Part shown: piece after piece, positions 8,256 through 23,846 of the stretch
How the letters are laid out: every line of letters begins with the position of its first letter
How positions within the stretch are numbered: position 1 is the stretch's first letter
Assembly (NCBI GenBank): GCA_013314715.1
Contig: JABUFC010000036.1
Span: 1 to 33,443 of the forward strand
Direction: 5' to 3'
Origin: Bacteroidales bacterium
GTDB lineage: Bacteria > Bacteroidota > Bacteroidia > Bacteroidales > GWA2-32-17
Length of the DNA: 33,443 bases
Program-made: the position numbers and the translations under genes
The notes under the pieces: model-generated
What the model was told of the DNA's origin: nothing
The model's database searches: none
Seen by the model: the letters and a program-made list of their open reading frames with translations, nothing else

Positions 8256-9026
8256 TTATTTTGTAATAAGACTTAACTGTTCACAGATTTTTTTACCAGG
8301 ATAATTAATTAAAACACCACGATTTTTATCGTTGTAAATAAAAAAACTTCCAGCAGCTAATCCATTTACTTGCACACGACTATATAATTCTGTAAAATGT
8401 TCTATAGTTCCAGCTCCTCCCAGTGCAACCACAGGAATCTGAATGGATGATGTAATTTTTTCGAGCAATGCTACATCGTATCCGTTCATTTCGCCATCAC
8501 GCTCAATAGACTGAATAATTAATTCGCCAGCCCCCATTTGTTCCATATATTTAGCAAATTCTAAGGGTGTTTTGCCCGTTGCATGTTTTCCGTTATTAAC
8601 ATAAACTTTTGGCTTGCCCCAAAAATCATTTTTTACATCGATACATACCATGATGGTCGATGAACCAAATCGATTGGCAGCTTCGTTAATAAATTTGGGA
8701 TTGAAATATGCTTCGCTTCCAATAATTACCTTTTCGGCTCCCGCTTGAATAAGCTCCATTATTTGATGGCAATTTTTGATACCTCCACCAACGCCAAAAG
8801 GCATATTGGTTTCATCGTTGAGCAAACGAACCAGTTCGGATGATATACATCGATTTTCGCGTGTTGCATAAATATCTAAAACAATTAATTCGTCAGCAAA
8901 CGATTCATTGAAAATACGAATAGCATTGATGGGATCGCCTATATATCGGTCTTCTTTAAATTTTCGTGTTTTAATTAAATGCTTATTTTTTAGCAATAAT
9001 ACCGGTATAATGCGAGGACGATACAT
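8256..9026 (-). CDS. HisF-like ammonia-channel subunit for sugar amidation (WbuZ/HisF2 type)
   Basis: A 256-residue (beta/alpha)8 barrel of the HisF family, probably channelling ammonia from the neighbouring HisH-like glutaminase to the amidotransferase encoded upstream. It opens MYRPRIIPVLLLKNK. In histidine-pathway HisF this segment is xxRIIPCLDV, with catalytic Asp11; here residue 11 is Leu. The other catalytic aspartate of HisF is retained as Asp130 in MVCIDVK. Phosphate-binding loops FGVGGGIK and VALGGAGT are present. Loss of Asp11 fits a protein that no longer makes imidazole glycerol phosphate. No other his gene is nearby, and the gene follows the HisH homologue by 3 bp at the end of a polysaccharide operon. 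Function is inferred from the Pseudomonas WbpG/HisH2/HisF2 and E. coli WbuX/Y/Z systems. Confidence 0.88.
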   Translation of the reverse strand: MYRPRIIPVLLLKNKHLIKTRKFKEDRYIGDPINAIRIFNESFADELIVLDIYATRENRCISSELVRLLNDETNMPFGVGGGIKNCHQIMELIQAGAEKVIIGSEAYFNPKFINEAANRFGSSTIMVCIDVKNDFWGKPKVYVNNGKHATGKTPLEFAKYMEQMGAGELIIQSIERDGEMNGYDVALLEKITSSIQIPVVALGGAGTIEHFTELYSRVQVNGLAAGSFFIYNDKNRGVLINYPGKKICEQLSLITK

Positions 9027-9029
9027 AAT

Positions 9030-9647
9030 TTACAATTGTAAAAAATTAGAGAAAATAAGCTTACCCCACTCATGGCTTTTCTCGGGATGAAATTGCACAC
9101 CCAAAATATGGTCTTTTTCTACAGCTGATGCATAAGAATAACCATATTGTGTTATCGCTTTAACATCGTTAGATTCTGTTGTTTGCCAATGGTACGAATG
9201 AGCAAAATAAAATTCCTTTTGATTTAGTTCGCTGGTCATTATTTTACTGTTACCTATTAATTCAATAGTATTCCATCCCATATGTGGAACTTTTAATCCA
9301 TGCATATTATCGAAACGCTTAACAGTAGCATTGAACCAACCAAACCCTTCTGCATTTCCTTCTTCGCTAAAACGTGCCATGAGTTGCATACCTAAACAAA
9401 TACCTAAAATAGGAATGCCTTGTTCTAACACAGCTTTGTTTATATTGCCCCACAAATTCATTTGTCGCAATTGGTAAACAGCTAAGCCAAAATGTCCCAC
9501 ACCAGGTAATATGATTTTTGAGGCATGGAGTATATCGTCGGGCATGTTCGTTACCACTACTTCGGCATGAAGCTTAGTAAGCATTTTGACAATGGAGTTT
9601 AAATTGCCCATTTTATAATCGATCACAACGATTTTAGCTGAACTCAT
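9030..9647 (-). CDS. HisH-like glutamine amidotransferase for sugar amidation (WbuY/HisH2 type)
   Basis: A 205-residue class I glutamine amidotransferase that should release ammonia from glutamine and pass it to the HisF-like partner. The triad is complete: Cys84 in GICLGMQ, His187 and Glu189 in GVQFHPEK. The N-terminal block MSSAKIVVIDYKMGNLNSIV and the ILPGVGHFG loop are typical of HisH. It lies 3 bp upstream of the HisF-like gene and 40 bp downstream of the GT4-WbuX fusion. That places glutaminase, channel and acceptor enzyme side by side in one transcript. On sequence alone it could serve histidine synthesis; the partner's missing Asp11 and the context argue against that. Confidence 0.9.
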   Translation of the reverse strand: MSSAKIVVIDYKMGNLNSIVKMLTKLHAEVVVTNMPDDILHASKIILPGVGHFGLAVYQLRQMNLWGNINKAVLEQGIPILGICLGMQLMARFSEEGNAEGFGWFNATVKRFDNMHGLKVPHMGWNTIELIGNSKIMTSELNQKEFYFAHSYHWQTTESNDVKAITQYGYSYASAVEKDHILGVQFHPEKSHEWGKLIFSNFLQL

Positions 9648-9687: not shown

Positions 9688-12174
9688 TTATTTTACAAAG
9701 AGTTTTCGATACAGCTTATACCAATAGTTTAAAATCTTATAATTATTGGGATATTGATAATACCAGCGAGGCTGAGCTTTAATTATTTCGTCCAATTCTT
9801 CTCGTTTAATCTCAAACTTTTTACAGATATACTCGTTAAGGTTTTCAACTTCATCTATTTTAAACGTAGGTTGTTTAAGTAATTCAAGAGCTTCTTCACG
9901 TGTCATTAAATTCATACAGATAAGCGACGAGAACGTGGCTTTTCGATAATCGATATTAAACTTTACAGGCAACAAATACGATTGCACCCAAGCTGTAATT
10001 CTCGATTCATAATGCTTACCTCCATAATGACGCCAACCAAATTCATTTTCTAAAATTTTTCGAGCCTCGTCTTTATTGTAATTGATATAGTTCAATAAGT
10101 ATATTATTTTGATTTGTCGAACAAACTTATAATAGCTTTCGTGCCAAAAACCAAATAAAGGAAAACGTTTTAACTTACCTTTACCAAACTGACGATGTAT
10201 GTACTTAAGATATTTTATATCTTTAGCGTTATAGTGCCATATTCGTGGCAAAATGCCTTCGGAGACATAGTTGCCACCGCTCACAATATATTTCACACCG
10301 TGTTTTGCCGCCACCTTATGTAAAATAGCTAAAATAGCTATATCGGTGGGTGTTTCTATTTCGGGTATCGAAGCTTTCAAAAAAGCTAATTGCAAATCGC
10401 GAAACTCGTTCCAATCGAGCACATAGCTTTCGTAGTCCATTTCGAGTTTATCGAGCAAATCTTTAATGTTTTTTACAGAGATTTCCGAATCCCAACCATT
10501 GTCCATATGTACAGCTAAAACCCGAACTCCATATTTTTTTAATAAATAAGCAGTATAGCAACTATCAACCCCACCACTAATACCTAAAACACAATCGTAT
10601 TTTTTGTTCTTTCCCTTTTCTTTAATTTTTTTGATAATATGTTCTAACTTAGTTAAATCGTTCGAAGTATTAATTTTATGAATGGTTTCGTTTAAAAACG
10701 TAGTACAATGATTGCAATACCCGTGTTCATCAAACGTAATTTCGGGGTCCGAAGTATCCATAACGCAACGGGTACATTGGCGGTAAGAAAGATGTAAATT
10801 GCTCACTTTTCTATTATCCTCTGAACGATTCAGTACTTCATTTTTCGTTAGCGTAAGATTCCAAACAATTTCAGCAAGTTTCTCTGTTTGTTTTTTGCGT
10901 GAGTATAGCTCTATATTTTTTGTATTACATTTTATTTCACCTGTTTTTATAAATTCATCATATAATTGGGTTAGTAAAACTTTTAAATGAGAGGTGTTTT
11001 CGACAATATAGCCGGCATTGGTTTCTTTAATCAAATCTTCTTGCATGAAGTGACTTAGACCTTCTACTTCTTCAAGATTATAATATTCTTCTTTAAGTTT
11101 TTGAGCTTCTGAATCATACGAAAAACACAATAATATGGATCGTCTAATACCAATATAATCAAAAATTTTGGTGCCTATAATAGAATAATCATTAAATAAC
11201 AACATTACATTATCTTTTGCCAATATGGGTAACAACTGTTCATTTTGTATTTTTGGGAATAAAGTAACACATGGAACTAAATTTGGATTTTGATTATTTA
11301 TCCAATCTTTCAATTGATCGGCAATATTAATTCCGTAAAAATTTAGTTTTATGCGAGCTTGAGAATGCTCTGAAATGAAAGCTGAAACTACTTTTAAAAA
11401 GGGTAGTATAGGATGCCAAGGATAAATAGTTCCTACAAAACCAATGCTAAAATATTCTGTTCTTTGTTTAATGCTACTGACTTTAGCAACAGCTTCAGGA
11501 TCGTAACCATTAGGAATAATAGCAAAAGATTTATTCGTAATTAAAGTTGAAATTTGATATTTAACAAAATCAGAAACTGTAATAATTAACGATACATTTT
11601 TTAAATATTTTTTTTCAAAATATTGATTCCATTTTTTAAATAAATTAGAATTATTTTTTTTATTTTGTGACCACGGATCGCGATAGTCGGCTATCCAAGG
11701 AATATTGAATTCTTTACTTAAATTAGAAGCATATTTAAATAATATAAAAGGGTCGCCGGTAGCAATGATAGCATCTACTCGATTATTTTTTAAATATTCA
11801 CGTGCAGCACGATATAAGCCCGATTTAGGACCGATATTCCATATCCATTGAGCAAATTCATAAAAAGCGGATATTGATTTCCGAATAAAACTTAACCGTT
11901 TTTCACCAAATTTAAGCATTAAGCGATTGGCTAAATTAGGTTTATAAGGCGTGCAAATAAGAGTACCTAAATCTGACTTTAAAACAATGGTTTCTGCCGA
12001 TTCGCTTGCCTCAATATAATCTAAATGATTGCCATGTTTATTTGCCCACTGACGAGTAATAACCACCGGTTCTACATTATATTCGTGTAAATATTTATAC
12101 CAAGCATAAGGTCGTAATCCCCCAACCGAAACATAAGGCGGAAAATCGTATGCTAATATGAGTAGTTTTTTCAT
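9688..12174 (-). CDS. Fusion: GT4-like glycosyltransferase + N-acetyl-sugar amidotransferase (WbuX/WbpG)
   Basis: The 828-residue frame joins two complete enzymes. Residues 1 to about 440 form a GT-B glycosyltransferase: an N-terminal MKKLLILAYDFPPYVSVGG glycine loop, WIADYRDPWS near 180, IIPNGYDP, and FVGTIYPWHP at the start of the donor-binding half. After a charged linker (about 440-462) comes an N-acetyl-sugar amidotransferase of about 365 residues, the normal full length. It has paired CxxC motifs, CTRC at 467-470 and CNHC at 487-490, a probable zinc ribbon. The ATP-binding PP-loop SGGVDS is at 533-538. WbuX/WbpG enzymes use ATP and ammonia to convert a sugar N-acetyl group into an acetamidino group, and the ammonia-supplying HisH/HisF pair is the next two genes. 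Both halves keep key motifs. A fusion is the simplest reading because the frame stays open; a lost stop in the assembly is the alternative. Confidence 0.9.
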   Translation of the reverse strand: MKKLLILAYDFPPYVSVGGLRPYAWYKYLHEYNVEPVVITRQWANKHGNHLDYIEASESAETIVLKSDLGTLICTPYKPNLANRLMLKFGEKRLSFIRKSISAFYEFAQWIWNIGPKSGLYRAAREYLKNNRVDAIIATGDPFILFKYASNLSKEFNIPWIADYRDPWSQNKKNNSNLFKKWNQYFEKKYLKNVSLIITVSDFVKYQISTLITNKSFAIIPNGYDPEAVAKVSSIKQRTEYFSIGFVGTIYPWHPILPFLKVVSAFISEHSQARIKLNFYGINIADQLKDWINNQNPNLVPCVTLFPKIQNEQLLPILAKDNVMLLFNDYSIIGTKIFDYIGIRRSILLCFSYDSEAQKLKEEYYNLEEVEGLSHFMQEDLIKETNAGYIVENTSHLKVLLTQLYDEFIKTGEIKCNTKNIELYSRKKQTEKLAEIVWNLTLTKNEVLNRSEDNRKVSNLHLSYRQCTRCVMDTSDPEITFDEHGYCNHCTTFLNETIHKINTSNDLTKLEHIIKKIKEKGKNKKYDCVLGISGGVDSCYTAYLLKKYGVRVLAVHMDNGWDSEISVKNIKDLLDKLEMDYESYVLDWNEFRDLQLAFLKASIPEIETPTDIAILAILHKVAAKHGVKYIVSGGNYVSEGILPRIWHYNAKDIKYLKYIHRQFGKGKLKRFPLFGFWHESYYKFVRQIKIIYLLNYINYNKDEARKILENEFGWRHYGGKHYESRITAWVQSYLLPVKFNIDYRKATFSSLICMNLMTREEALELLKQPTFKIDEVENLNEYICKKFEIKREELDEIIKAQPRWYYQYPNNYKILNYWYKLYRKLFVK

Positions 12175-12199: not shown

Positions 12200-13441
12200 T
12201 TAAACACATAATTCAAATATTTTTTTCACAAACTCACCATAATTCTTTTCTGCTTCAAAATTTTCTTTCCAAAATTGGTAAGCATTTTCTCTATACTGCT
12301 GCTTTTCAATATCGGGTAAATTTAAATAATTTTTTATAATTTTTGCCACATCATCTACCTTAAAACCTTTGGGAACCAAAAAACCAACTTTTTGATTAAC
12401 AACTTCACAAACTCCCCCCACGTTAGTGGCTAAAACGGGTATTCCTGCTGATAAAGCCTCCATAATGCTAACTGGCACTCCTTCCGACTCGCTTAAATTG
12501 ATAAACAAATCCACATAATTTTTATGATAAAAATCTAAAATTTCTTCATTGGGAACATTGCCTTTGAACTCATATTTTACATACTGAAGTTTTTCTTGGG
12601 CTAATTCTTCTAACCTGTTTCGAAGTGGACCATCTCCAAAATGTACCCACTTCAAATTTTTTATATTTAGTATGGCTAGCAACTCTACAATTAAATGAAT
12701 TCTTTTTAATGGAATTATGTGGCTGCAACTGCAGATAAGTATTCCATCGTGATTTTTATTTTCAATGGGTAAACGATGATTGATTTTTCCAAGACGTGAA
12801 ACCGCAATTTTATTATTATATTCATTCCCCAATAACGAAATAAACGCTTTACGACCGGCCTCAGATATGGAGTAAGTTACATCTAAATTTGAGACGATAA
12901 ACTTTTTAAAAGGCAAATAAGGCGGTTGATGCCTTTCAAAAAAAACATCCCAGCCGTGAGCTCGTGATACACAAACCATTGAATTATTTTTTGCTTTCAT
13001 TAAGGATAAGGCTAAAGCTTTATAGTCGTTCCAGTAAGAATAATAAATGGTTTTATTTTGGGAAATGGCTTCTTTAAATAATACATCCAATAGTTGTTTT
13101 TTCACTTTTAAGGCTCTTACCACATCCATATACATCAACTTAAAAAGTATCACCGAAGGTTTTAGCTTGTAATTTTTTATTGCAAACCTCCACTCTTCCA
13201 TAAAAAATGAACTAAGTATTTTGGGAAGTGCCTTTACTTTATCAAAAAAAGATACAAAATCACTAACAGGGTAAACTATCATATTTTTAGGCACATAACG
13301 ATTAAAATTAACGCTCTGTTGTGATTTTACAACTACAATCACTTTTTCAAATCGGTCAGCAATAACCCTCATCTCATCATCGATAAAAAATTCGCCGTGA
13401 GTAATTGGGTAATTATCGGTTAATAAAATAAGGGTTTTCAT
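12200..13441 (-). CDS. GT4 family glycosyltransferase
   Basis: A 413-residue GT-B glycosyltransferase, probably adding one sugar to the lipid-linked repeat unit at the inner face of the cytoplasmic membrane. The C-terminal half has the family 4 hallmark ESEGVPVSIMEALSAGIPV followed by ATNVGGVCEVV, which gives the E-x7-E pair and the nucleotide-sugar site. CSCSHIIPLKRIHLIVELL matches the domain-start loop with the phosphate-binding Lys-Arg. The open frame begins at a TTG (13447). I prefer the ATG two codons in, at 13441 (MKTLILLTDNYP). The 25-bp gap to the fusion gene and 34 bp from the preceding gene indicate co-transcription. Donor and acceptor cannot be told from sequence. Confidence 0.88.
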   Translation of the reverse strand: MKTLILLTDNYPITHGEFFIDDEMRVIADRFEKVIVVVKSQQSVNFNRYVPKNMIVYPVSDFVSFFDKVKALPKILSSFFMEEWRFAIKNYKLKPSVILFKLMYMDVVRALKVKKQLLDVLFKEAISQNKTIYYSYWNDYKALALSLMKAKNNSMVCVSRAHGWDVFFERHQPPYLPFKKFIVSNLDVTYSISEAGRKAFISLLGNEYNNKIAVSRLGKINHRLPIENKNHDGILICSCSHIIPLKRIHLIVELLAILNIKNLKWVHFGDGPLRNRLEELAQEKLQYVKYEFKGNVPNEEILDFYHKNYVDLFINLSESEGVPVSIMEALSAGIPVLATNVGGVCEVVNQKVGFLVPKGFKVDDVAKIIKNYLNLPDIEKQQYRENAYQFWKENFEAEKNYGEFVKKIFELCV

Positions 13442-13475
13442 GTTCAAAACTTTGAATAATTATAAAATCTATGCA

Positions 13476-14618
13476 TTAGCACTTTTGCATGTATATATTT
13501 AAAAGTTTTTCAGTGTGTTTCTTCATATCATATTGTTTTGCAAATGTCTGTGCATAATTTGACATAGCAAGAAATTTTTCACGATTATGCCATAATTCAA
13601 TGATTTTATCTACAAATTCAACTTCATTTTGTTCAAAAATTAAATATCCATTTTTATCATTTTCAATTATATCTCTGTTCCCTTTACCGTCGAGTGCTAT
13701 AATAGGCAAACCAGATGCCATCGCCTCTAAAAAAACTAATCCAAAAGGTTCATACCATGCACTGTGAACATAAATATGATGACTCCGATACATTTGTTTC
13801 ATATCATGAATAATTCCAGGTAAATCATAAAATTCATCCAAATTATTTTCCCTTATTAAATCAATCACATCTTGTCGTAAAAGTCCATTGCCAATTAAAG
13901 TCATTTTAAATGGAACGTTTCTTTTTTTAAGTTCAATCCCTATTTTCACTAAAAACATTTGATTTTTTTTGGGTTGAAAGCTTCCTACATTAATTAATTT
14001 TATAGGATATTCTAGTTCTTTTCTAAAAGCTTCAGGATTAAAAAACTTTTCAAAATCAAATCCATAATAAATTAAATGAACTTTCGCTTTTAATTTAGTT
14101 GATAAGACTTTCTGGTAAAAATCATAGGTATGCTTTGAATTGGCAATAAAATGAGTTTCAACTTTTGAATATTTTTTAGCAATAAGATACCTTTTTTCTA
14201 GCCATTGTATCAGTTTTTTTTTATTAAAAAGAAATTTCCATTCAAAATTTGCAAATTGTTCCATATTATCGTGTCCATGACACACATAAACACAATTTTT
14301 TAAAATGTAATAAGAACTAATAAACTCGCCTAAAAAACGGTGTGTATGGATAACGTGAGGTTTAAAATCATCAAGCAGTTTTTTTAAAATCGTATTCTCA
14401 TTTTTTCGTCTAAAAGAAAATGTTTGAAAATTCAAAGTCACGATATTAAAATCTTTTGTTTCGGCTTCGTATTGGTTATTGTCAAACAAAGATGCTATAA
14501 TAAAATCAACTGTATTTACTGCTTGGAGTTGCTTACATAAATCAACCAAATATCGTTCAGCTCCGCCTTTTCCAAGATCAGTAATAATAAATAATATCCT
14601 TAATTTTTCCATAAACAT
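13476..14618 (-). CDS. GT4 family glycosyltransferase
   Basis: A 380-residue GT-B glycosyltransferase of the polysaccharide operon. The N-terminus LRILFIITDLGKGGAERYLVDL has the GGAER glycine-rich loop common to family 4 enzymes. The C-terminal half has NVGSFQPKKNQ (Lys contact), then EPFGLVFLEAMASGLPIIALD with the E-x7-E signature, and GNRDIIENDKNGYLI. The start overlaps the end of the epimerase gene: ATG 14618 (MFMEKL) overlaps by 19 bp and ATG 14612 (MEKLRIL) by 13 bp. I cannot decide between them. The overlap suggests translational coupling. Sugar specificity is unknown. Confidence 0.88.
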   Translation of the reverse strand: MFMEKLRILFIITDLGKGGAERYLVDLCKQLQAVNTVDFIIASLFDNNQYEAETKDFNIVTLNFQTFSFRRKNENTILKKLLDDFKPHVIHTHRFLGEFISSYYILKNCVYVCHGHDNMEQFANFEWKFLFNKKKLIQWLEKRYLIAKKYSKVETHFIANSKHTYDFYQKVLSTKLKAKVHLIYYGFDFEKFFNPEAFRKELEYPIKLINVGSFQPKKNQMFLVKIGIELKKRNVPFKMTLIGNGLLRQDVIDLIRENNLDEFYDLPGIIHDMKQMYRSHHIYVHSAWYEPFGLVFLEAMASGLPIIALDGKGNRDIIENDKNGYLIFEQNEVEFVDKIIELWHNREKFLAMSNYAQTFAKQYDMKKHTEKLLNIYMQKC

Positions 14619-15535
14619 TTTTTTAATTTTCTAACTCTTGGTCTTACACGATACATCAATTTAACAAATAAATAATTGATTGGTGTAATGTTTTTTTCCC
14701 ATTTTTTGTAGTATTTTTCAAAAATCTTTTCTTGAGTTAATAAATATAATATTTTCAGTTGAGGGACATGAACGTTTTTTTGATAATAATACCTTACTAA
14801 CTCTTGCTTTTGCAAATCGTAATAAGACCAATATCCGGCATCAAATCGGGGCAAATTTTGCCGGATAGTTTCCAAACAAGCATCAATATTGTATTTAACC
14901 ATAATATTCCCGGTTACCCGATATAAATCAAATAAACCAAATAATGCATAAATAAACCCATTAAGAACATAAGAGGGTGGTTCAGAAGGAAATTCCTCAT
15001 ACCATAAATGACCATCTTTATCTATACGTTTTACACCTCCATCTTTAACATCCACATTCATAAATTGATAAGCCTTCCAGGCTGTCTCTAACAACGAGGA
15101 ATTTTGAGTAATCTGATATACTCTCAAGTAGAGAGAAATAACTTCTCCTTGTGCCATAGCCGATGGCCAAGGAGCTTTAATATTGTATTTTTTATCGTCA
15201 AAATTGTTATACCAAACAGCCCATTGTTCGGTTTCGTGTTTCAACTTTTCTAATCGTTCTATACACGCAAAAAGGTTTTTCAATTTGTTTTCGTCTTGGT
15301 ATTCAAGCCAATCGGCATGAAGCATAAATCCATACTGGCAAATATTTACCGGAAAATATTCGTATCTACCATTGATTCCAATCATGGGAACATGCTGATC
15401 GTCAAATTTGCCGTCATAGTAATTTTGGGTGTAGTGAACCATAGCTGGACGCATATCAATATAATATACTCCCAAGCTTTTATCCCAACTTACCTTGCCT
15501 AATCTTAACGTAATTTTTTTACTCTCCTCTTTCAT
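14600..15535 (-). CDS. D-glucuronyl C5-epimerase-like protein
   Basis: A 311-residue protein that resembles the C-terminal catalytic domain of heparan glucuronyl C5-epimerase (PF06662 type), which inverts C5 of uronic acids, usually within a glycan chain. Visible family blocks are the tyrosine-rich stretch VYYIDMRPAMVHYTQNYYDG (about 23-42), APWPSAMAQGEVISLYLR at 121-138, and the signature LWYEEFPSEPPSYVLNGF at 177-194. The fold is expected to be an (alpha/alpha)-toroid. There is no signal peptide or membrane segment, so it probably acts in the cytoplasm on a lipid-linked oligosaccharide or an intracellular chain. It is shorter than vertebrate Glce because the N-terminal beta region is absent. 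Its place among glycosyltransferases supports a role in making the repeat unit. The substrate uronic acid is unknown; a glucuronate or N-acetylated hexuronate residue is inferred. Confidence 0.8.
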   Translation of the reverse strand: MKEESKKITLRLGKVSWDKSLGVYYIDMRPAMVHYTQNYYDGKFDDQHVPMIGINGRYEYFPVNICQYGFMLHADWLEYQDENKLKNLFACIERLEKLKHETEQWAVWYNNFDDKKYNIKAPWPSAMAQGEVISLYLRVYQITQNSSLLETAWKAYQFMNVDVKDGGVKRIDKDGHLWYEEFPSEPPSYVLNGFIYALFGLFDLYRVTGNIMVKYNIDACLETIRQNLPRFDAGYWSYYDLQKQELVRYYYQKNVHVPQLKILYLLTQEKIFEKYYKKWEKNITPINYLFVKLMYRVRPRVRKLKKCLWKN

Positions 15536-15544
15536 GGTTTATTT

Positions 15545-16471
15545 TCATAAAGGTCGAATCCCATAGTTATCGATTATTATTCCTTTAACCATATCCTTAG
15601 GAGTAGCAAAGCATATTTTTTCTTTCCCCTCCCATGGAGCTTTGGTACCATCGTGTCGCCATTGACTCGACTTAAAATTCATAAAGTGAATATAAATGAA
15701 ATTTCGTGCAACATCGCGATTGTTGGTAATTTTACTGTCAATATAATACCACGTATCGGGTTGTTGGCTATTTAATGTTCCATCAAGCCAGGGTTTAAAA
15801 ACGAACGGCGTGGTGTATTGTTCTTTCAGATAAAGTTTTCGGGTTTTGTAAAATGATAGTTTGTTTAAAAACTTTTCGGGTAGCCTTAGCTTAAATTTAT
15901 CGTTGACCTTATGTAAATTATTTTGTACATACGCATTGGTTATTCCATGTTCATCAATACCCACAAAATCGGGATGATACAGAGCCTCTTTCCATCGGTA
16001 TATTTTTCTAAACATTGTTCGGTTTTTCTCATTGTTTCTGAAAAGGGCAAAATGTCCTGAAATGCGGTGGCTGTGGGTTGAAAACACATCGTATTTTGCA
16101 AGCAATTCATCGGTATAGAACGAACGAATATCACCAAACAACAGATCAACGTCGCACCAGCCATAAAAATCGTAGTCTTTAAAATCTACTTGATGAATAT
16201 ATCCGAACAATGGACGTAAATCGCAAAGTTTATAAGCGTTGGGAGGATTAAAATTCAATCCTGTAACTTGGTTTACAAACGAAATATAATCGCTAAAAGT
16301 AAGCGATCGAACTTTAATGTTTTGGGCATCAAGCAGCGATGTATCGCAATCAGTATAAAACAGAAAATCAATAGTTGAATTACGCTTGATGGTTTCTACA
16401 AATAATGCAAACCACTCCGGCCAGCGTCCAAAGTAAGGGATAAGGATTATTATGGAGTTTTTTCTTTTCAC
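15545..16471 (-). CDS. DUF6625-like putative glycosyltransferase
   Basis: A GT-A-like putative glycosyltransferase of about 308 residues, resembling the DUF6625 family found in capsule and LPS clusters. From the start used here, IIILIPYFGRWPEWFALFVET (split as IIILIPYFG and RWPEWFALFVET) is the N-terminal Rossmann strand. The acidic DxD-type motif is WCDVDLLFGD at 105-114, expected to hold metal and nucleotide sugar. HRISGHFALFRN and DEHGITNAY follow. The open frame extends to a TTG at 16498, inside the FkbM gene. I prefer the GTG at 16471 because it lies 8 nt past the FkbM stop and gives the family-like N-terminus MKRKNSIIILIPYFG. No ATG is available near either. Linkage and donor are unknown. 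Confidence 0.72.
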   Translation of the reverse strand: MKRKNSIIILIPYFGRWPEWFALFVETIKRNSTIDFLFYTDCDTSLLDAQNIKVRSLTFSDYISFVNQVTGLNFNPPNAYKLCDLRPLFGYIHQVDFKDYDFYGWCDVDLLFGDIRSFYTDELLAKYDVFSTHSHRISGHFALFRNNEKNRTMFRKIYRWKEALYHPDFVGIDEHGITNAYVQNNLHKVNDKFKLRLPEKFLNKLSFYKTRKLYLKEQYTTPFVFKPWLDGTLNSQQPDTWYYIDSKITNNRDVARNFIYIHFMNFKSSQWRHDGTKAPWEGKEKICFATPKDMVKGIIIDNYGIRPL

Positions 16472-16479
16472 TTTACTAA

Positions 16480-17244
16480 CTAAGAATTTAAATAACAAAT
16501 AATGTTTTCTCCTTTATGCGACAATACAAAATCATAATTTACTAATGTGCTAAAAAACTGTTTTGAGCATCCTTTTCTTAACCAATCATGCAACTCTATT
16601 ATAATAACTTTTGTAATAGGTAGCCATTGTTCAAAATTACTTTGAAACAATTCAATTTCTGAACCTTCAATATCAATTTTTAAAATATCAATCTGCGTGA
16701 TCTGGTGTATATTGATGAGATCTATCATCGTCAACGTTTTAACGTTATCCTGATTTTCATGAGTGGATTCCATTACTGAGTAGCCCCACTCTCCAAGATT
16801 ATTATCTTTTATGCTCAAATCTGCATGTTTATGCCAAATAGCATTATGATATATAACAATATTCTGATAATTTTTAGTGTTTTTTAGTAACATATCATAG
16901 TTATTTTTTTCAGGCTCTAATGCTATAATTTTTGATTCAGGAAACTTATTTGCAAAAAAGACGGAAGACAAGCCGATATTTGCCCCTAAATCAATGATTA
17001 CATTGGGTTTGAATTCAAGCTTTATATTGTACTCCTGATTAAAAAGAACTTGATAAAAGGTTTGAATATCTGAACTTTCAGCCCGTAAATATAAGGGGTA
17101 CTTATATTCCTTGTGTTTAAATTTTATTTCTTTTTTTCTTGAAATAAATAGCTGTTTAACATAAAAGATAAGACCATTCCAACCAAATCTAAGAAAGTGA
17201 TTTCGGATATAATTTATTCGTAATAATTGTTTAATTAACTGCAT
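16480..17244 (-). CDS. FkbM family SAM-dependent methyltransferase
   Basis: A 254-residue class I methyltransferase of the FkbM family, probably O-methylating a sugar of the repeat unit. The SAM-binding motif I is VIIDLGANIGLSSVFFANKF (near residues 82-101). Motif II acidic residues are in IIALEPEKNNYDML, and the family block ITQIDILKIDIEGSEIELF is near 200. The N-terminal 50 residues are basic and aromatic and contain no clear membrane segment. It starts 8 bp downstream of the flippase stop. Its 3' end overlaps the longest possible frame of the next gene, so the genes are tightly packed in one operon. The acceptor hydroxyl is not predictable. Confidence 0.9.
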   Translation of the reverse strand: MQLIKQLLRINYIRNHFLRFGWNGLIFYVKQLFISRKKEIKFKHKEYKYPLYLRAESSDIQTFYQVLFNQEYNIKLEFKPNVIIDLGANIGLSSVFFANKFPESKIIALEPEKNNYDMLLKNTKNYQNIVIYHNAIWHKHADLSIKDNNLGEWGYSVMESTHENQDNVKTLTMIDLINIHQITQIDILKIDIEGSEIELFQSNFEQWLPITKVIIIELHDWLRKGCSKQFFSTLVNYDFVLSHKGENIICYLNS

Positions 17245-17252
17245 ATTTAAAT

Positions 17253-18590
17253 TTATGATTTTGTTTTAATAAATGATTTGAAATAGGATGACACTGTTTT
17301 AATATCGTGGTAATTCATCAAATAATAATTACCAAATGGCATTTTTAATTTAATGTGTACAAAATACGCCATGGTTAAAAACGAAGCAAAATAAGTAAAA
17401 GTTGACGCTAGTGAAGCACCTACCAACCCAAAATATTTTATTAATATAAAATTGAATACAATATTAACAACAAAACTCAATATTGTTGCATATAAATTAT
17501 AAATTTGTTTATTGCAAGAAGCTATATAAACAGCATATAATCTTGACACATTTGAAAAAATAATACCTGGCAACAATATTTGAAAAAGAAATGCAGCACT
17601 TCTAAAATCCGCTCCATAAATAAGTGGGATAATCCAGTTTGCTATTAAAAAGCTAAAAACAGCCAATAAAATTAATGAAGTGAAATTTATTTTTGAATAT
17701 TTGTAAAACATTTTTTCTTTTTCTCTTATATTTTCTCCTGATAAAAAGGGCATTAATACATTTCCAATAGGAGCAGAAATCATATTAAAGATTACAATTA
17801 AGTTAGTGGCCAATGAAAACAGCCCAATAGCAACTTCGTCAAGATAATAATTCAAAAACCACAAACTTAATCTTGCATTAAAAAAACCAATAAATAAAGA
17901 TAAATGTGTATATAATGTGAATTCAATCATTGGTTTAAAATCTTTTGAATAAGAGACATTAAAACTAGGCTTAATATTTATGTCTTTATAAAAATAGTAT
18001 ATAAATTGAAATATATTTATTAATGAAACAAATAACAAACAATATAGAAGTATTTTTGTATCAATTTCAAACAAATTTGATTTATGAATAAAAAACAGTA
18101 AACCAAAAGATAAAAAATTCAATATACTATTGTAGAACAATATTTTATTTAATTTATTGAATTTTTTCATTCCTTGAAAAAATCCTGTTGCTATCCCTCC
18201 AATAATTGATAAAATTGAAAACAAATAAAGCCAAACTAAATACAATACTCCGCTATATTTTTCTGGGAATAATAGTTCTTTGTAATTTGAATAGTTAAGA
18301 AACAACAACAATAGAAAAATCAAGATACTACAAGCTATAATTATATATAGAGAGATCGCTAAAATTTTATTTTTTGCAATGGTACCTGAAGGTAAAAAGT
18401 ACGTTAATGCGCTTCCAAAACTCAACGAAAAAAAAACAGCAATCAATTGAGCATTTGCCTGATACAAAGCAAAAACGCCTTTCCCTTCTGGACCAATCAT
18501 TCGAGCAATAAAAACACCTGATATAATTCCAAATAATTGAATTGGGATTTGAGTTAAAAATGTATATAATATGCTACTGCTAAGCTTCAC
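17253..18590 (-). CDS. Wzx-like oligosaccharide flippase (PST/MATE-type), GTG start
   Basis: A 445-residue very hydrophobic protein with about 12 predicted membrane segments, of the polysaccharide transporter (Wzx/RfbX) type. It should flip undecaprenyl-diphosphate-linked repeat units across the inner membrane. The N-terminal region FGIISGVFIARMIGPEGKGVFA is the family signature: a helix, then ARxIGPxGxG. The start is a GTG at 18590 (GTG-Lys-Leu-Ser). The next in-frame ATG lies about 30 codons in, inside the first conserved helix, so GTG is well supported. TATTTTTG at 18602-18609 on the minus strand fits a -7 box but would give a leader of only a few nucleotides, and no -33 partner is seen. 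It is the first gene of the minus-strand operon. Confidence 0.9.
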   Translation of the reverse strand: MKLSSSILYTFLTQIPIQLFGIISGVFIARMIGPEGKGVFALYQANAQLIAVFFSLSFGSALTYFLPSGTIAKNKILAISLYIIIACSILIFLLLLFLNYSNYKELLFPEKYSGVLYLVWLYLFSILSIIGGIATGFFQGMKKFNKLNKILFYNSILNFLSFGLLFFIHKSNLFEIDTKILLYCLLFVSLINIFQFIYYFYKDINIKPSFNVSYSKDFKPMIEFTLYTHLSLFIGFFNARLSLWFLNYYLDEVAIGLFSLATNLIVIFNMISAPIGNVLMPFLSGENIREKEKMFYKYSKINFTSLILLAVFSFLIANWIIPLIYGADFRSAAFLFQILLPGIIFSNVSRLYAVYIASCNKQIYNLYATILSFVVNIVFNFILIKYFGLVGASLASTFTYFASFLTMAYFVHIKLKMPFGNYYLMNYHDIKTVSSYFKSFIKTKS

Positions 18591-18725: not shown

Positions 18726-21700
18726 ATGAAACTACGGGCAATTATAGTAACTCTAGTTATTTTATCTCTTAGCTTTGCTGCATATAGTCAATTTAATTAT
18801 TCAAGATTAAAGCTTTGGCTTACTTCAGACACCATTGATACAGTTAATAATAAAATTACTCATTGGTTTGACAGAAGTGGCTATCATTACGATTTAAGCC
18901 AAACTATACCCAACTGGCAACCTACATTTTCTTTTAGCCCTATTCTAAATCATAATACACTATGTTTTGATGGAAACGACCTCCTTAATTCACCTAACCT
19001 CAACCTTTTAAATTGTGAAATTTTTATGATAGCTAAAGGATATGAAGTTAATAATCAATATTTCGGATTTGGAAGTGGATATTATGTTAATTTTCTTAAT
19101 GATCGATCTATTATTTACCTTGAAGGAGGAAATTATAGATATTTTACACCACAACAAAATACCAACGTTTTTCAAATTCATAATTTTGGATGGAGTAATG
19201 GAGATGCATCTACTGCATTCTTAAATATCAACAACATACCTTTAAATTACGGGAGTACCATTGCTAATACAGGCTTTATACTTAATGACTTAAAAGTTGG
19301 AGCCAATGCATTAAAAGGAGAAATTGCTGAAATTATTGTTTTCGATACTATTTTAAACCCAACCCTACGCGATAGTGTCGTTTTGTATCTTCAAAATAAA
19401 TACGCACCACCTGTGCGTTTACCTAACGATACGATACTTAATACTTTCTGTACTATTACCATAAAGCCACAAGGTTATTTTACTGCTTACCTTTGGAACA
19501 CCGGTGAAACAACTGATAGCATTACCGTTCAATCTACAGGATATTATAAAGTTACAGCCACCGACATTTTTGGACGACAAAGCACCGATAGTATTTGGGT
19601 GCAATTCCCAGAGGCACAGTTTGCTAGCACCTATCAGCTATGTTTTGGCGATTCGATGCTTATTACATCTGCGTTAGGCAATAGCATGAATTATAACTGG
19701 AGCAACGGAGGAAATCAAAGTTATACCTATGTAAAACAAGAAGGTTGGTATTATGTAACCATTACTGACGCACAATATTGTTATTACATCGATTCTTTCT
19801 TTGTCGATATTGACAGTTTGGCCATGCATCCGCTCTTTGTAAGCGATACCACTCACTTATGCGAGGGCAATTTACTTAACTTTAATCCCTATAGCTTTCC
19901 TATTGCACATTACCTGTGGCAACCAACCGGTGATACGCTACCACAGACTACCGTTACACAAAGCGGCTATTATACGCTAAGCGTTACAGATGTTGTTGGA
20001 TGCCAAAACAAAGATTCTATTTTTGTTGATATTATTGGAAGCATTCCAATGATTGATTTCACATTTGACACCATTTGTTTAGGAACCATAACGACTTTCA
20101 CTAATTTATCTTCATTAAATTACGATTCTTTATTATGGGAATTTGGAGATGGCAGCATTTCAAAAGATTTTAATACAACTCATTTATTTTTAGCATCTGG
20201 CAATTATTGGGTTAAGCTAACATTATATAACGGAGCTTGTAGTAATTACGTTACGAAAACAATAATAGTTAAAGAAAAACCTATTGCTAATTTTAATTAT
20301 TCATTGTCATGTACAGGGTTACCTACCAACTTTTATAACTTATCATACAGCAATGATAGTATTATAGAAACACTTTGGAACTTTGATGGAATTCATACAA
20401 GTACCTCAAATAATCCTTCTTTTATCTTTACAAACAATGGGAATTATTCGGTTTCATTAAATATTACCTCTGCAAATGGATGCAAAGATTCGATTATTAA
20501 AACTATTAATATATCTGATTCCGCAGTTTTGCCAATTATTAGTTTATATTACCCGGAAAATAATATTACTATTGCCAATAATCAAGTTAATTTTGTTTGG
20601 ACTGCAAGTAATGCCATAAAATATATCTTTGAATTATCTCTTGATTCATTTGTAACTATTATAACTTCCGATACAACTGTATATAATTATGTCCATTTAT
20701 TTCTAGAAAATAAAACATATTTTTGGAGAATAAAGGCATTTAATTATTGCAATCAAGAAAGCATTTCTGAAATATATAAATTTAGCGTTTTTACTCCTCA
20801 GACTTTAAATGGTTTAAAACTTTGGCTTACTTCAGACACCATTGATACAGTTAATAATAAAATTACTCATTGGTTTGACAGAAGTGGCTATCATTACGAT
20901 TTAAGCCAAACTATACCCAACTGGCAACCTACATTTTCTTTTAGCCCTATTCTAAATCATAATACACTATGTTTTGATGGAAACGACCTCCTTAATTCAC
21001 CTAACCTCAACCTTTTAAATTGTGAAATTTTTATGATAGCTAAAGGATATGAAGTTAATAATCAATATTTCGGATTTGGAAGTGGATATTATGTTAATTT
21101 TCTTAATGATCGATCTATTATTTACCTTGAAGGAGGAAATTATAGATATTTTACACCACAACAAAATACCAACGTTTTTCAAATTCATAATTTTGGATGG
21201 AGTAATGGAGATGCATCTACTGCATTCTTAAATATCAACAACATACCTTTAAATTACGGGAGTACCATTGCTAATACAGGCTTTATACTTAATGACTTAA
21301 AAGTTGGAGCCAATGCATTAAAAGGAGAAATTGCTGAAATTATTGTTTTCGATACTATTTTAAACCCAACCCTACGCGATAGTGTCGTTTTGTATCTTCA
21401 AAATAAATACGCACCACCTGTGCGTTTACCTAACGATACGATACTTAATACTTTCTGTACTATTACCATAAAGCCACAAGGTTATTTTACTGCTTACCTT
21501 TGGAACACCGGTGAAACAACTGATAGCATTACCGTTCAATCTACAGGATATTATAAAGTTACAGCCACCGACATTTTTGGACGACAAAGCACCGATAGTA
21601 TTTGGGTGCAATTCCCAGAGGCACAGTTTGCTAGCACCTATCAGCTATGTTTTGGCGATTCGATGCTTATTACATCTGCGTTAGGCAATAGCATGAATTA

Positions 21701-23846
21701 TAACTGGAGCAACGGAGGAAATCAAAGTTATACCTATGTAAAACAAGAAGGTTGGTATTATGTAACCATTACTGACGCACAATATTGTTATTATATCGAT
21801 TCTTTCTTTGTCGATATTGACAGTTTAGCCATGCATCCGCTCTTTGTAAGCGATACCACGCACTTATGCGAAGGTAATTCGCTTAGCTTTAATTCTTATA
21901 ATTTCCCTATTGCACATTACCTGTGGCAACCAACCGGTGATACGCTACCACAGACTACCGTTACACAAAGCGGTTATTATACGCTAAGCGTTACAGATGT
22001 TGTTGGATGCCAAAACAAAGATTCTATTTTTGTAGAGATTACAGGCAAGGCACCTATTGCCAATTTTTCGGCTACCCATACATGCAAAGGCGACAGTACA
22101 CTTTTTACAGATTTATCTATTCCACTCGACAGTTCACCCATCAATACCTGGCAATGGATTATTAACAACGACACCCTCAACGAACAAAATCCATCGTATT
22201 TGTTTTCGCAATATGGTACTTATGCCATTAAACTAAATGTAGGCACCGAAGCAGGTTGTTTTCAAACGAACGAACAAAACATTACTGTTCACCCACTACC
22301 CATTTGCGATTTTGACGCTATTCGATTATGCAACAACCACGCTACTTATTTCTCTTCTCATTCTCATATTCCAGTAGGCTCTATTGCTGGCTTAACCTGG
22401 AAATGGGGAGATGGAACGTTCAGCTTCGATAGCGACACTACTCATATCTACGCATTACCCAACAACTACACAGTAACACTTATTGCCGAAAGCGATGAGG
22501 GTTGTATCGATAGTATTGCACAAAATATCGAAATTAAACCAAGCCCCGTAGCCGGTTTTGATGTTTCGCCTTCGTGCAATGAGAACCCTACTTTTTTTGC
22601 CGATACCAGTCAAACCTATTACTATAACCCTATTATGCACTGGGAGTGGTGGTTTGGCGATGGTGCTACTTCTTTTACTCAACACCCCCAACATGTATAT
22701 CAGCAAAGCGGAAATTATATAATTACATTAGCCATACAATCGCTCAATGGATGCAGCGATACTGTTCAAAAAAACATTTTAGTTTCCACAAAACCACAGG
22801 CAAATTTTATTGCAGATACCGCATGTGTTCATCAACCTTTAATTTTAGAAGATGCTTCATCAATAATAAATGGTACTATTGACGAATGGAATTGGTATGT
22901 TCATAATAATTTTGTTTCTTCATTGCAAAATGCAACTTTAACACTCACATCTTCGGGTAGCTTGCCTATAACACTAATTGTTACCTCCAATACTCGATGC
23001 ACCGATACCATCACAAAAAACATTACCGTTTATCCCAAACCCAGCGTAAATTTCGACCTTCAACCGACTTATGGAGCTGTTCCATTAACGGTATATTTCA
23101 ATAACCTATCTGAATTTGGACAATCATATTGGAATTTCGGCGATGGTAGTACATCAACCATTACTCAGCCAACACATAATTTTACCGATACAGGCAAATA
23201 CACCATTTGGCTTACCTTAACCAACATTCACGGATGCAAAGATTCTATTTCTAAAACAGTATTAGTTGTGCCAAATTGGCTCGATTTAGCTATTGAAAAA
23301 ATATTTTATATTAAAGACAATCTATTTTTAACGGTTCAGGTTTTAGTCGCCAATGTGGGTACACTTCCTATCGAAAATCCCTATGTAACTCTTATGGTCG
23401 ATGGCAATCGTTTAGTTTCTGAATTAATTACCGACACTCTTTTTTCGGGCGATAAAATTATGTACACCTTTACAAGTAAAATACCTATAGCCGATGCAAC
23501 TCCTTCATATATATGCGTTCAAGGACAAGTATGGCAAACACAAAATGAAGTCAACAATCAAAATAATGAGCAATGCATTGCCTTAAGCGAAGAAGAACAA
23601 TTACTTAATTTTTACCCCAATCCTGCTCAAAACAATATTCATATTCTATTGCAATTAGATGAGGATCAAACTATTTATATTCAGTTAACAGATATTACAG
23701 GCAAAAAACTGCTATATCAACCATTAACACTGGAAAAAAGCTTTCATCAACTAAATATTTCTTTGGAAAACCTCTCACAAGGAATTTATATTATACAAAT
23801 ACGAACGAAAAAAAATACCTTTGTGCATAAATTTATGAAAGAATAG
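18726..23846 (+). CDS. Giant T9SS-secreted LamG-like/PKD repeat protein with internal duplication
   Basis: A 1706-residue surface or secreted protein. A signal peptide (MKLRAIIVTLVILSLSFAAYS, then Gln) is followed by a LamG/concanavalin-like domain at about 27-226 (LKLWLTSDTIDT, HWFDRSG). Three Ig-like modules of about 65 residues fill 230-434. Two PKD-like domains lie at about 437-598 (LLWEFGDGS, TLWNFDG), then a fibronectin-III-like module to about 690. A second LamG plus three Ig modules covers 699-1103 and is almost identical to the first set. About five PKD or PKD-like domains follow (WKWGDGTF, WEWWFGDGA, YWNFGDGS), a CARDB-like domain near 1516-1620, and a type A T9SS sorting domain from LLNFYPNPAQNN (near 1626) to the C-terminal KFMKE. 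It should cross the outer membrane by T9SS. An adhesive or matrix role is inferred; no enzyme motif is visible. Confidence 0.9.
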   Translation: MKLRAIIVTLVILSLSFAAYSQFNYSRLKLWLTSDTIDTVNNKITHWFDRSGYHYDLSQTIPNWQPTFSFSPILNHNTLCFDGNDLLNSPNLNLLNCEIFMIAKGYEVNNQYFGFGSGYYVNFLNDRSIIYLEGGNYRYFTPQQNTNVFQIHNFGWSNGDASTAFLNINNIPLNYGSTIANTGFILNDLKVGANALKGEIAEIIVFDTILNPTLRDSVVLYLQNKYAPPVRLPNDTILNTFCTITIKPQGYFTAYLWNTGETTDSITVQSTGYYKVTATDIFGRQSTDSIWVQFPEAQFASTYQLCFGDSMLITSALGNSMNYNWSNGGNQSYTYVKQEGWYYVTITDAQYCYYIDSFFVDIDSLAMHPLFVSDTTHLCEGNLLNFNPYSFPIAHYLWQPTGDTLPQTTVTQSGYYTLSVTDVVGCQNKDSIFVDIIGSIPMIDFTFDTICLGTITTFTNLSSLNYDSLLWEFGDGSISKDFNTTHLFLASGNYWVKLTLYNGACSNYVTKTIIVKEKPIANFNYSLSCTGLPTNFYNLSYSNDSIIETLWNFDGIHTSTSNNPSFIFTNNGNYSVSLNITSANGCKDSIIKTINISDSAVLPIISLYYPENNITIANNQVNFVWTASNAIKYIFELSLDSFVTIITSDTTVYNYVHLFLENKTYFWRIKAFNYCNQESISEIYKFSVFTPQTLNGLKLWLTSDTIDTVNNKITHWFDRSGYHYDLSQTIPNWQPTFSFSPILNHNTLCFDGNDLLNSPNLNLLNCEIFMIAKGYEVNNQYFGFGSGYYVNFLNDRSIIYLEGGNYRYFTPQQNTNVFQIHNFGWSNGDASTAFLNINNIPLNYGSTIANTGFILNDLKVGANALKGEIAEIIVFDTILNPTLRDSVVLYLQNKYAPPVRLPNDTILNTFCTITIKPQGYFTAYLWNTGETTDSITVQSTGYYKVTATDIFGRQSTDSIWVQFPEAQFASTYQLCFGDSMLITSALGNSMNYNWSNGGNQSYTYVKQEGWYYVTITDAQYCYYIDSFFVDIDSLAMHPLFVSDTTHLCEGNSLSFNSYNFPIAHYLWQPTGDTLPQTTVTQSGYYTLSVTDVVGCQNKDSIFVEITGKAPIANFSATHTCKGDSTLFTDLSIPLDSSPINTWQWIINNDTLNEQNPSYLFSQYGTYAIKLNVGTEAGCFQTNEQNITVHPLPICDFDAIRLCNNHATYFSSHSHIPVGSIAGLTWKWGDGTFSFDSDTTHIYALPNNYTVTLIAESDEGCIDSIAQNIEIKPSPVAGFDVSPSCNENPTFFADTSQTYYYNPIMHWEWWFGDGATSFTQHPQHVYQQSGNYIITLAIQSLNGCSDTVQKNILVSTKPQANFIADTACVHQPLILEDASSIINGTIDEWNWYVHNNFVSSLQNATLTLTSSGSLPITLIVTSNTRCTDTITKNITVYPKPSVNFDLQPTYGAVPLTVYFNNLSEFGQSYWNFGDGSTSTITQPTHNFTDTGKYTIWLTLTNIHGCKDSISKTVLVVPNWLDLAIEKIFYIKDNLFLTVQVLVANVGTLPIENPYVTLMVDGNRLVSELITDTLFSGDKIMYTFTSKIPIADATPSYICVQGQVWQTQNEVNNQNNEQCIALSEEEQLLNFYPNPAQNNIHILLQLDEDQTIYIQLTDITGKKLLYQPLTLEKSFHQLNISLENLSQGIYIIQIRTKKNTFVHKFMKE
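18813..20026 (+). repeat. Internal duplication, copy 1 (1214 bp)
   Basis: Direct repeat of 20820-22033 at a constant offset of 2007 bp with no indels. Reading both copies by eye, the first 974 bp (18813-19786) show no difference. The remaining 240 bp hold roughly 14 substitutions, clustered at 19787, 19820 and about 19857-19904. It encodes the LamG-like domain plus three Ig-like modules. Confidence 0.95.
20820..22033 (+). repeat. Internal duplication, copy 2 (1214 bp)
   Basis: Second copy of the 1214-bp unit. Protein differences from copy 1 fall only near its C-terminal end, for example NSLSFNSYNFPIAHY against NLLNFNPYSFPIAHY. The two copies are separated by a 793-bp unique segment (20027-20819) that encodes PKD and fibronectin-III-like modules. 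Confidence 0.95.

Follow-up and report, generated by a model that had tools for sequence, protein, structure and literature searches.

What does a cell gain by building a sugar amidotransferase into a glycosyltransferase? We address this question for a window of 33,443 nucleotides (nt), by which we mean the whole stretch of DNA analysed (positions 1 to 33,443, forward strand, of contig JABUFC010000036.1, assembly GCA_013314715.1, from a Bacteroidales bacterium of GTDB lineage GWA2-32-17). One gene in the window encodes an N-terminal glycosyltransferase (GT) of the GT4 kind together with a C-terminal N-acetyl sugar amidotransferase (NASAT) of the WbuX/WbpG kind. WbpG and WbuX work with HisH/HisF-like partners, and NASAT in those systems is a free-standing protein, whereas the window NASAT follows a glycosyltransferase in the same polypeptide. 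We conclude that the fusion is real and recurrent, and that it is a form of the known WbpG/WbuX system in which glycosyltransferase and amidotransferase are one protein. The explanation we favour, with a probability of roughly 0.65, is a bifunctional enzyme that couples the acetamidination of a sugar to its transfer, using ammonia from HisH and HisF2.

One reading frame for two enzymes

The fused gene is a single open reading frame (ORF) of 828 codons on the minus strand (12174..9688), running from ATG to TAA. The first-pass annotation of this DNA, which worked from the letters alone, had placed a GT4-like enzyme and a WbuX/WbpG-type amidotransferase in one frame at 9688-12174 without giving a strand; the coordinates are correct, and the uninterrupted codons and family matches confirm the shared frame. 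The parts of the gene are as follows.

10840..12174, minus strand: GT4-like glycosyltransferase domain, residues 1-445 (Pfam Glyco_transf_4, GT4/GT-B structure alignment; unfused relatives end about there)
10792..10839, minus strand: linker between the domains, about residues 446-461 (the conserved SRK of the GT end lies 42 residues from the first NASAT cysteine)
9691..10791, minus strand: NASAT/WbuX domain, residues 462-828 (TIGR03573, 8wex alignment)
10765..10776, minus strand: CTRC, first half of the tetracysteine (zinc) motif, residues 467-470 (motif definition from PMC10607449, in part)
10705..10716, minus strand: CNHC (within GYCNHC), second half of the tetracysteine motif, residues 487-490 (motif)
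10561..10578, minus strand: PP-loop SGGVDS, residues 533-538 (motif)

In-frame stops are absent from residues 1-445 (35 and 47 in the other two forward frames), from the junction at residues 440-470 (3 and 3) and from residues 462-828 (27 and 37). Because dozens of stops interrupt the other two forward frames in both halves, an ORF this long is not a product of chance. Third-position G+C is 0.20 in the GT half and 0.33 in the NASAT half, a contrast that fits two origins without proving them.

The amidotransferase half was described at first pass as complete, spanning about residues 462-828 with CTRC, CNHC and SGGVDS, and this description holds. The NCBIfam model TIGR03573 (WbuX) matches residues 466-798 at 278 bits (cut-off 203.2) and covers model positions 3-343 of 344. 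Family motifs are a PP-loop SGGXDS and a tetracysteine CXXC...[GN]XCXXC (PMC10607449, in part), and the window protein carries them as SGGVDS at residue 533, CTRC at 467 and CNHC at 487. In an AlphaFold2 model of the fusion, made from an input alignment with four GT relatives, the predicted local distance difference test score (pLDDT, means of ten-residue blocks) is mostly >90 in the NASAT half, 54-95 in residues 1-200 and 26-55 in residues 200-460.

The modelled NASAT half aligns with the Legionella pneumophila enzyme LpNASAT (PDB 8WEX) at a Z score of 25.8 and a root-mean-square deviation of 3.1 over 313 residues with 21% identity; the next PP-loop protein in the structure list reaches a Z score of 12.2. 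LpNASAT is like the window NASAT in fold, tetracysteine and PP-loop, but its 468-residue chain is described without a GT domain. By family, the window protein also belongs with WbpG of Pseudomonas aeruginosa O5 and WbuX of Escherichia coli O145, NASATs with a PP-loop, a tetracysteine and an acetamidino product (PMC10607449, in part). As argued from the fold in the same source, such enzymes probably ligate ammonia to the N-acetyl group of a sugar, with ATP converted to AMP and pyrophosphate (PPi), to yield the acetamidino group.

The GT half had also been called complete, which stands for its N-terminal domain and not for its C-terminal half. Pfam Glyco_transf_4 (PF13439) matches residues 115-227 at 39.4 bits (cut-off 28.5), and residues 2-205 of the predicted model align to GT4/GT-B structures at Z scores of about 11-13, for example MshA (3c4q; Z 12.8, 158 residues aligned). 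The C-terminal half has no match to Pfam Glycos_transf_1 (PF00534) or PF13692. In an alignment of 20 members of the subfamily, one of them the window GT, Glyco_transf_4 is present in all 20 and a C-terminal GT model in just one, as a weak match to Glyco_trans_1_4. The C-terminal half is well conserved across these members, most of which are unfused, and the alignment holds 71 invariant positions. As the GT profile had no match among solved structures at an expectation value (E) of 0.001, we do not guess the donor sugar from a relative.

The same fusion in other genomes

Our genome draws overlap, and in the order, phylum and second order draws no more than two candidates were scored in each genome, under strict E limits, so that NASATs in GT-bearing genomes may be missed. 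Among 393 genomes of the order, the full-length fusion is present in four that belong to four different families: the window's own genome, G327 (60% identity), G056 (56%) and G302 (49%). It was found in the own genome and G056 among 99 relatives, and in the own genome only among 395 genomes of the phylum and again among the 395 of a second order draw with completeness of at least 97%. Searches of the families of G327, G302 and G056 (4, 6 and 2 genomes) gave no second fusion. Within the own genus, NASAT occurs as a free protein in G002, which lacks such a GT, and G001 and G003 gave no match.

Beyond these draws, none of 36 loci from a public genome collection carries the full-length fusion, viral contigs gave no relative, and none of 16 plasmid records with a match has a place covering 80% of the query. 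The full-length GT+NASAT fusion is rare and patchy, not unique. The tetracysteine and PP-loop are retained in all four fusions, and the distance from SRK to the first cysteine, 42 residues in the window, is 31, 26 and 52 residues in the other three. The first-pass annotation had considered that homologues might always be split and that the window gene might be a single case of a lost stop; the same domain order, full-length in G327, G056 and G302, contradicts this.

Other partners of the amidotransferase

Fusion of NASAT to glycosyltransferases extends beyond this subfamily. With the WbuX model, 135 of 395 genomes drawn from the class gave matches, and 17 of the 150 best-scoring matches listed sit in ORFs of at least 600 residues, the window's among them. 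We read the sequences of all 16 others and scanned them with Pfam. Every one has an N-terminal extension of about 200-650 residues, and in nine NASAT is joined to another GT: a GT4 with Glycos_transf_1 in seven (five genomes of one genus, L191-L195, and two of another, L196-L197), a GT2 in L204 and a short GT4 N-domain in L202. The partner in L201 is a hexapeptide acyltransferase. Five partners have no Pfam match (L198-L200, which are alike, and L203 and L206, also alike); HisH and HisF come after L203, as they do in the window. Further loci hold a different GT4+NASAT fusion (L084/L207) and, on a contig named Planctomycetota (L051), NASAT and GT4 in reverse order, with the NASAT part about 40 residues short.

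Two fusions, L205 from the class draw and L033 from another search, join NASAT to enzymes of other kinds. In G1304 (L205:4018-7092, minus strand), an AsnB-type enzyme with a glutaminase domain is joined to NASAT in a protein of 1025 residues, possibly a self-contained ammonia source or a means of double amidation of one sugar. At L033:2282-4288 (plus strand), NASAT is fused to an S-adenosylmethionine-dependent methyltransferase (669 residues). Legionaminic acid of Campylobacter is known to carry N-methylacetimidoyl groups (PMC3958885, in part), and the L033 protein could both make and methylate the amidine.

No nucleotide-sugar dehydratase, dehydrogenase or aminotransferase occurs among the identifiable partners, with 5 of the 16 class-draw partners lacking a Pfam match. 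The partner spectrum leans towards action at the stage of glycan assembly, in a sample that is small and non-independent. As a control, HisF2 lies in an ORF of >310 residues in 1 of 82 rows, against 17 of the 150 best NASAT matches listed in ORFs of at least 600 residues (Fisher p 0.004, in a test that treats congeneric rows as independent).

The single HisF2 case is a fusion to a GT4 in G1190 (L211:4784-6718, plus strand; 645 residues), where a free NASAT and then HisH come directly before the HisF2-GT4 protein. Pfam places His_biosynth at residues 5-231 and Glyco_transf_4 and Glycos_transf_1 at 323-605. To judge from these domains, the amidation complex of G1190 is predicted to be tethered to a GT through another of its subunits, HisF2. 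A more distant parallel is WbpS/PGN_1234 of Porphyromonas gingivalis, which is like the window system in the amidation of a surface-glycan sugar in Bacteroidota, but is an AsnB-type uronamide-forming enzyme that yields a carboxamide and not the amidine expected of the window NASAT (PMC7468200, in part).

One fusion event or several

A single fusion inherited unchanged by all four genomes is not supported by the tree of NASAT domains. In this tree of 41 rows, a clade of the four fused domains is rejected by the approximately unbiased (AU) test (p 0.002). The fused domain of G302 pairs with the split one of G273 (100/100), and that of G056 pairs with the split one of G098 (99/93). The GT tree is undecided, as one clade is not rejected (p 0.32) and 17 of 29 inner branches are open; bootstrap had not settled in either tree. 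A quick tree was also made of 110 NASAT domains, 22 of them fused, without the shortened L051 domain. It requires 12 or more switches between the fused and the free state, a rough number from one support measure and a simpler model, in which gain and loss are indistinguishable.

Unfused neighbours and co-occurrence

The same two enzymes also stand side by side as separate genes. A GT of the same subfamily lies directly before a free NASAT, on one strand, in G897 (4-nt overlap), G273 (4 nt apart), G955 (29 nt) and G098 (89 nt); these GTs are 48-54% identical to the window's, and the pair is two genes there, not one. Other arrangements bring the ammonia subunits between the two, in the order GT, HisH, HisF2, NASAT (L036), with the NASAT-methyltransferase protein in last place (L033), or with a doubled GT in first place (G155).

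In the order draw, in which a GT-positive genome is one with the GT subfamily at 46% identity or more, a NASAT match is present in 9 of 19 GT-positive and 28 of 374 GT-negative genomes (p 1e-5, by Fisher tests that ignore kinship, with rows of one genus not independent). With the four fusion genomes removed, NASAT is found in 5 of 15 GT-positive genomes (p 0.005), and with the NASAT of G098 also left uncounted, as it was seen only among the 99 relatives, in 4 of 15 (p 0.027). These co-occurrence counts, like those of NASAT and HisF2 rows, were compiled from listings by eye.

The GT subfamily is also found fused to itself. Tandem proteins of 859-920 residues, made of two copies of the window GT subfamily, are encoded at L125:10037-12736, L126:4655-7414, L128:9018-11690 and L208:4739-7315, in G098, G005, G155 and G312, the copies in G312 being more distant (30-34%).

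Ammonia supply

Two genes follow the fusion on the same strand.

9030..9647, minus strand: HisH-type glutaminase subunit (TIGR01855, 214.9 bits, cut-off 105.4)
8256..9026, minus strand: AglZ/HisF2-family acetamidino modification protein, predicted ammonia channel subunit (NF038364, 322.1 bits, cut-off 310)

The fusion, HisH and HisF2 are consecutive, with gaps of 40 and 3 nt, and both family matches lie above their cut-offs; the first-pass annotation was thus right that HisH- and HisF-like subunits are the next two genes. The window HisF passes the cut-off of the AglZ/HisF2 family, with the difference that its partner NASAT is here fused to a GT. We rejected its assignment as a histidine gene, as it fails the hisF cut-off of TIGR00735 (196.8 bits vs 294.55), passes that of HisF2 and has no companion match in its genome at E 1e-20. 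A role in histidine synthesis is unlikely because this HisF2 is the sole NF038364 match in its genome at that limit, in a search that catches ordinary HisF in 13 of 14 control genomes. The own genome, called 99.5% complete, yielded no histidine-type HisF, and the organism may not make histidine.

The claim that the fusion sits beside its own ammonia supply holds in the window and is not constant elsewhere. An intact HisF2 above the cut-off is present in two of the four fusion genomes, the own one (within the window) and G327 (on another contig). The HisF2 of G056 is broken, and G302 has none above the family cut-off in its genome, where matches below the cut-off are adjacent as hisA/hisF would be. 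We therefore dropped the idea that HisH and HisF2 always accompany the fusion. Amidination in G302 and G056 requires another ammonia source or may be lost.

Two further observations concern these loci. G302 and G273 have NASAT fused to or beside the GT, yet neither genome has a HisF2 above the family cut-off. G056 keeps, just upstream of its intact GT+NASAT fusion, what is left of a HisH-HisF2-NASAT set (L118:1609-3155).

Ammonia may also be supplied at a distance. Among the best 150 NASAT matches listed, 38 genomes have at least two, of which 24 appear in the HisF2 list and 14 do not. A single HisF2 match at E 1e-80 was found in 22 of these 24 and two matches in the other two, at a limit strict enough to miss divergent copies, such as the second, weaker HisF of G1216. 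Because 22 of the 24 multi-NASAT genomes show a single HisF2 match, we suggest that several NASATs probably draw in trans on one HisH-HisF2 pair.

Proposed coupling of amidination to transfer

We propose that the N-terminal GT-B/GT4 domain would transfer an N-acetylated sugar from a nucleotide sugar to a lipid-linked glycan. The C-terminal NASAT domain would use ATP, released as AMP and PPi, to activate the N-acetyl group of that sugar, and ammonia would replace its oxygen to give the acetamidino group. Glutamine-derived ammonia would reach NASAT through HisH and the HisF2 channel. The fusion would keep the amidination of a sugar close to its transfer, so that the modified sugar would be made where it is used, either on the donor at hand-over or on the freshly added lipid-linked residue. 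The suggestion at first pass that a fusion could couple the two steps gains support from comparison: four genomes have the pair fused through linkers that differ, other genomes have it as adjacent genes, and NASATs elsewhere are fused to other GTs. The coupling itself is still something we infer, as are a hold on NASAT at the membrane, catalysis by both halves, the identity of the sugar, the action of both halves on the same residue and the order of steps.

Several observations weigh against this explanation. The broken HisF2 of G056 and the lack of one above the cut-off in G302, described above, are among them. With two candidates scored in each genome, the order draw gave no NASAT match in 10 of its 19 GT-positive genomes, for example G236, G192 and G221, whose examined stretches contain no NASAT; an amidinated sugar is thus not a general requirement of the GT. 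G877 has a window-like cluster (FkbM, DUF6625, C5-epimerase, GT4c, GT) with no NASAT in the 15 kb examined, and its NASAT, HisH and HisF2 lie on another contig. Additionally, the C-terminal half of the window GT is divergent and has a low-confidence model, and no gene for making the substrate sugar (nucleotide-sugar pathway) is recognised in the window cluster. The non-monophyly of the fused NASATs could partly reflect the splitting of old fusions or domain exchange, not repeated fusion.

The alternative that survives best, though improbable, is that neighbouring genes were joined by chance and drift, so that NASAT acts on a free nucleotide sugar with no coupling to transfer. GT and NASAT are neighbours in several clusters, where a lost stop codon or a short deletion could be enough to fuse them, and the GTs self-fused in G098, G005, G155 and, more distantly, G312 show that neighbour joining happens. 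Chance joining fits poorly with the same pair being fused in four genomes through differing linkers, and with a partner range that includes other GTs and, among identifiable partners (5 of 16 lack a Pfam match), no dehydratase, dehydrogenase or aminotransferase. HisF2, in comparison, is rarely fused (the one row of 82), and that case is again a GT4.

The same GT subfamily recurs in four fusions whose NASATs are not one clade, and we therefore favour a shared substrate over mere placement of NASAT at the membrane. If placement were the purpose, NASAT would amidinate a residue added by GT4b or GT4c, two GT4 enzymes encoded upstream and listed below, while the fused GT adds another sugar. We consider this somewhat less probable still, even though enzymes like GT4b and GT4c are found repeatedly in GT+NASAT loci, and in two genera (L191-L195 and L196-L197) the NASAT partner is itself a GT4b-like enzyme. 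NASAT partners elsewhere also include an acyltransferase, a methyltransferase and AsnB, and a partner need not share the sugar.

It is very unlikely that the GT half is a recruitment domain with little or no catalytic activity, which would leave NASAT as the only active part. The missing Glycos_transf_1 match, the lone weak Glyco_trans_1_4 match among 20 subfamily members and the GT profile without a solved structure at E 0.001 would suit such a domain, but the invariant positions in mostly unfused members, the alignment of the N-terminal half to catalytic GT4 structures and the occurrence of the subfamily as a free-standing gene beside other GTs argue for an enzyme. Finally, we reject, as having next to no chance of being right, an assembly or sequencing error that removed a stop codon between GT and NASAT in this draft genome of 100 contigs, because three further genomes have full-length homologous fusions with unequal linkers and the frame is open across the linker, with three stops in each alternative forward frame.

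The bifunctional, coupled enzyme that we prefer bears on a wider question. A 2025 review of protein O-glycans in Bacteroidota states, in the part that concerns these groups, that it is unknown whether acetamidino-type groups are added before glycan assembly, on the nucleotide sugar, or after it (PMC12871550, in part). We tentatively suggest, while thinking the odds somewhat against it, that acetamidination in Bacteroidota may often occur at the assembly stage. A general HisH-HisF2 module would serve several NASATs, each joined covalently to the transferase of its sugar, and the amidine would be made on the lipid-linked glycan or at hand-over, not on the free nucleotide sugar.

Natural GT+NASAT fusions make this question of timing directly testable, as they hold two active sites that can be inactivated separately in one protein. 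For orphan glycosyltransferases they also predict the class of sugar, one that is N-acetylated and then amidinated, something that sequence alone rarely reveals. Such fusions may additionally offer a ready-made catalyst for glycans with acetamidino sugars. Titles and abstract openings among the literature matches listed hold no account of a GT fused to NASAT, and we do not claim its absence from print.

The surrounding cluster

The window genes upstream of and including the fusion are a surface-polysaccharide cluster, in which the following genes accompany the fusion.

12200..13447, minus strand: GT4b, a GT4 glycosyltransferase and the upstream neighbour of the fusion (Pfam Glycos_transf_1)
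13476..14618, minus strand: GT4c, a GT4 glycosyltransferase (Pfam Glycos_transf_1, Glyco_transf_4)
14600..15535, minus strand: D-glucuronyl C5-epimerase C-terminal domain protein (Pfam C5-epim_C)
15545..16498, minus strand: DUF6625 protein (Pfam DUF6625)
16480..17244, minus strand: FkbM-type methyltransferase (TIGR01444, Pfam Methyltransf_21)
17253..18590, minus strand: Wzx-type flippase (Pfam Polysacc_synt)

The one Epimerase_2 match of the own genome, a WecB-type enzyme, lies on another contig in a different glycan locus (L219). Elsewhere in the window, positions 18726-23846 (plus strand) encode a protein of 1706 residues. It contains a nearly identical internal repeat that spans several hundred residues, and we take its C-terminal region to resemble a type IX secretion sorting domain.

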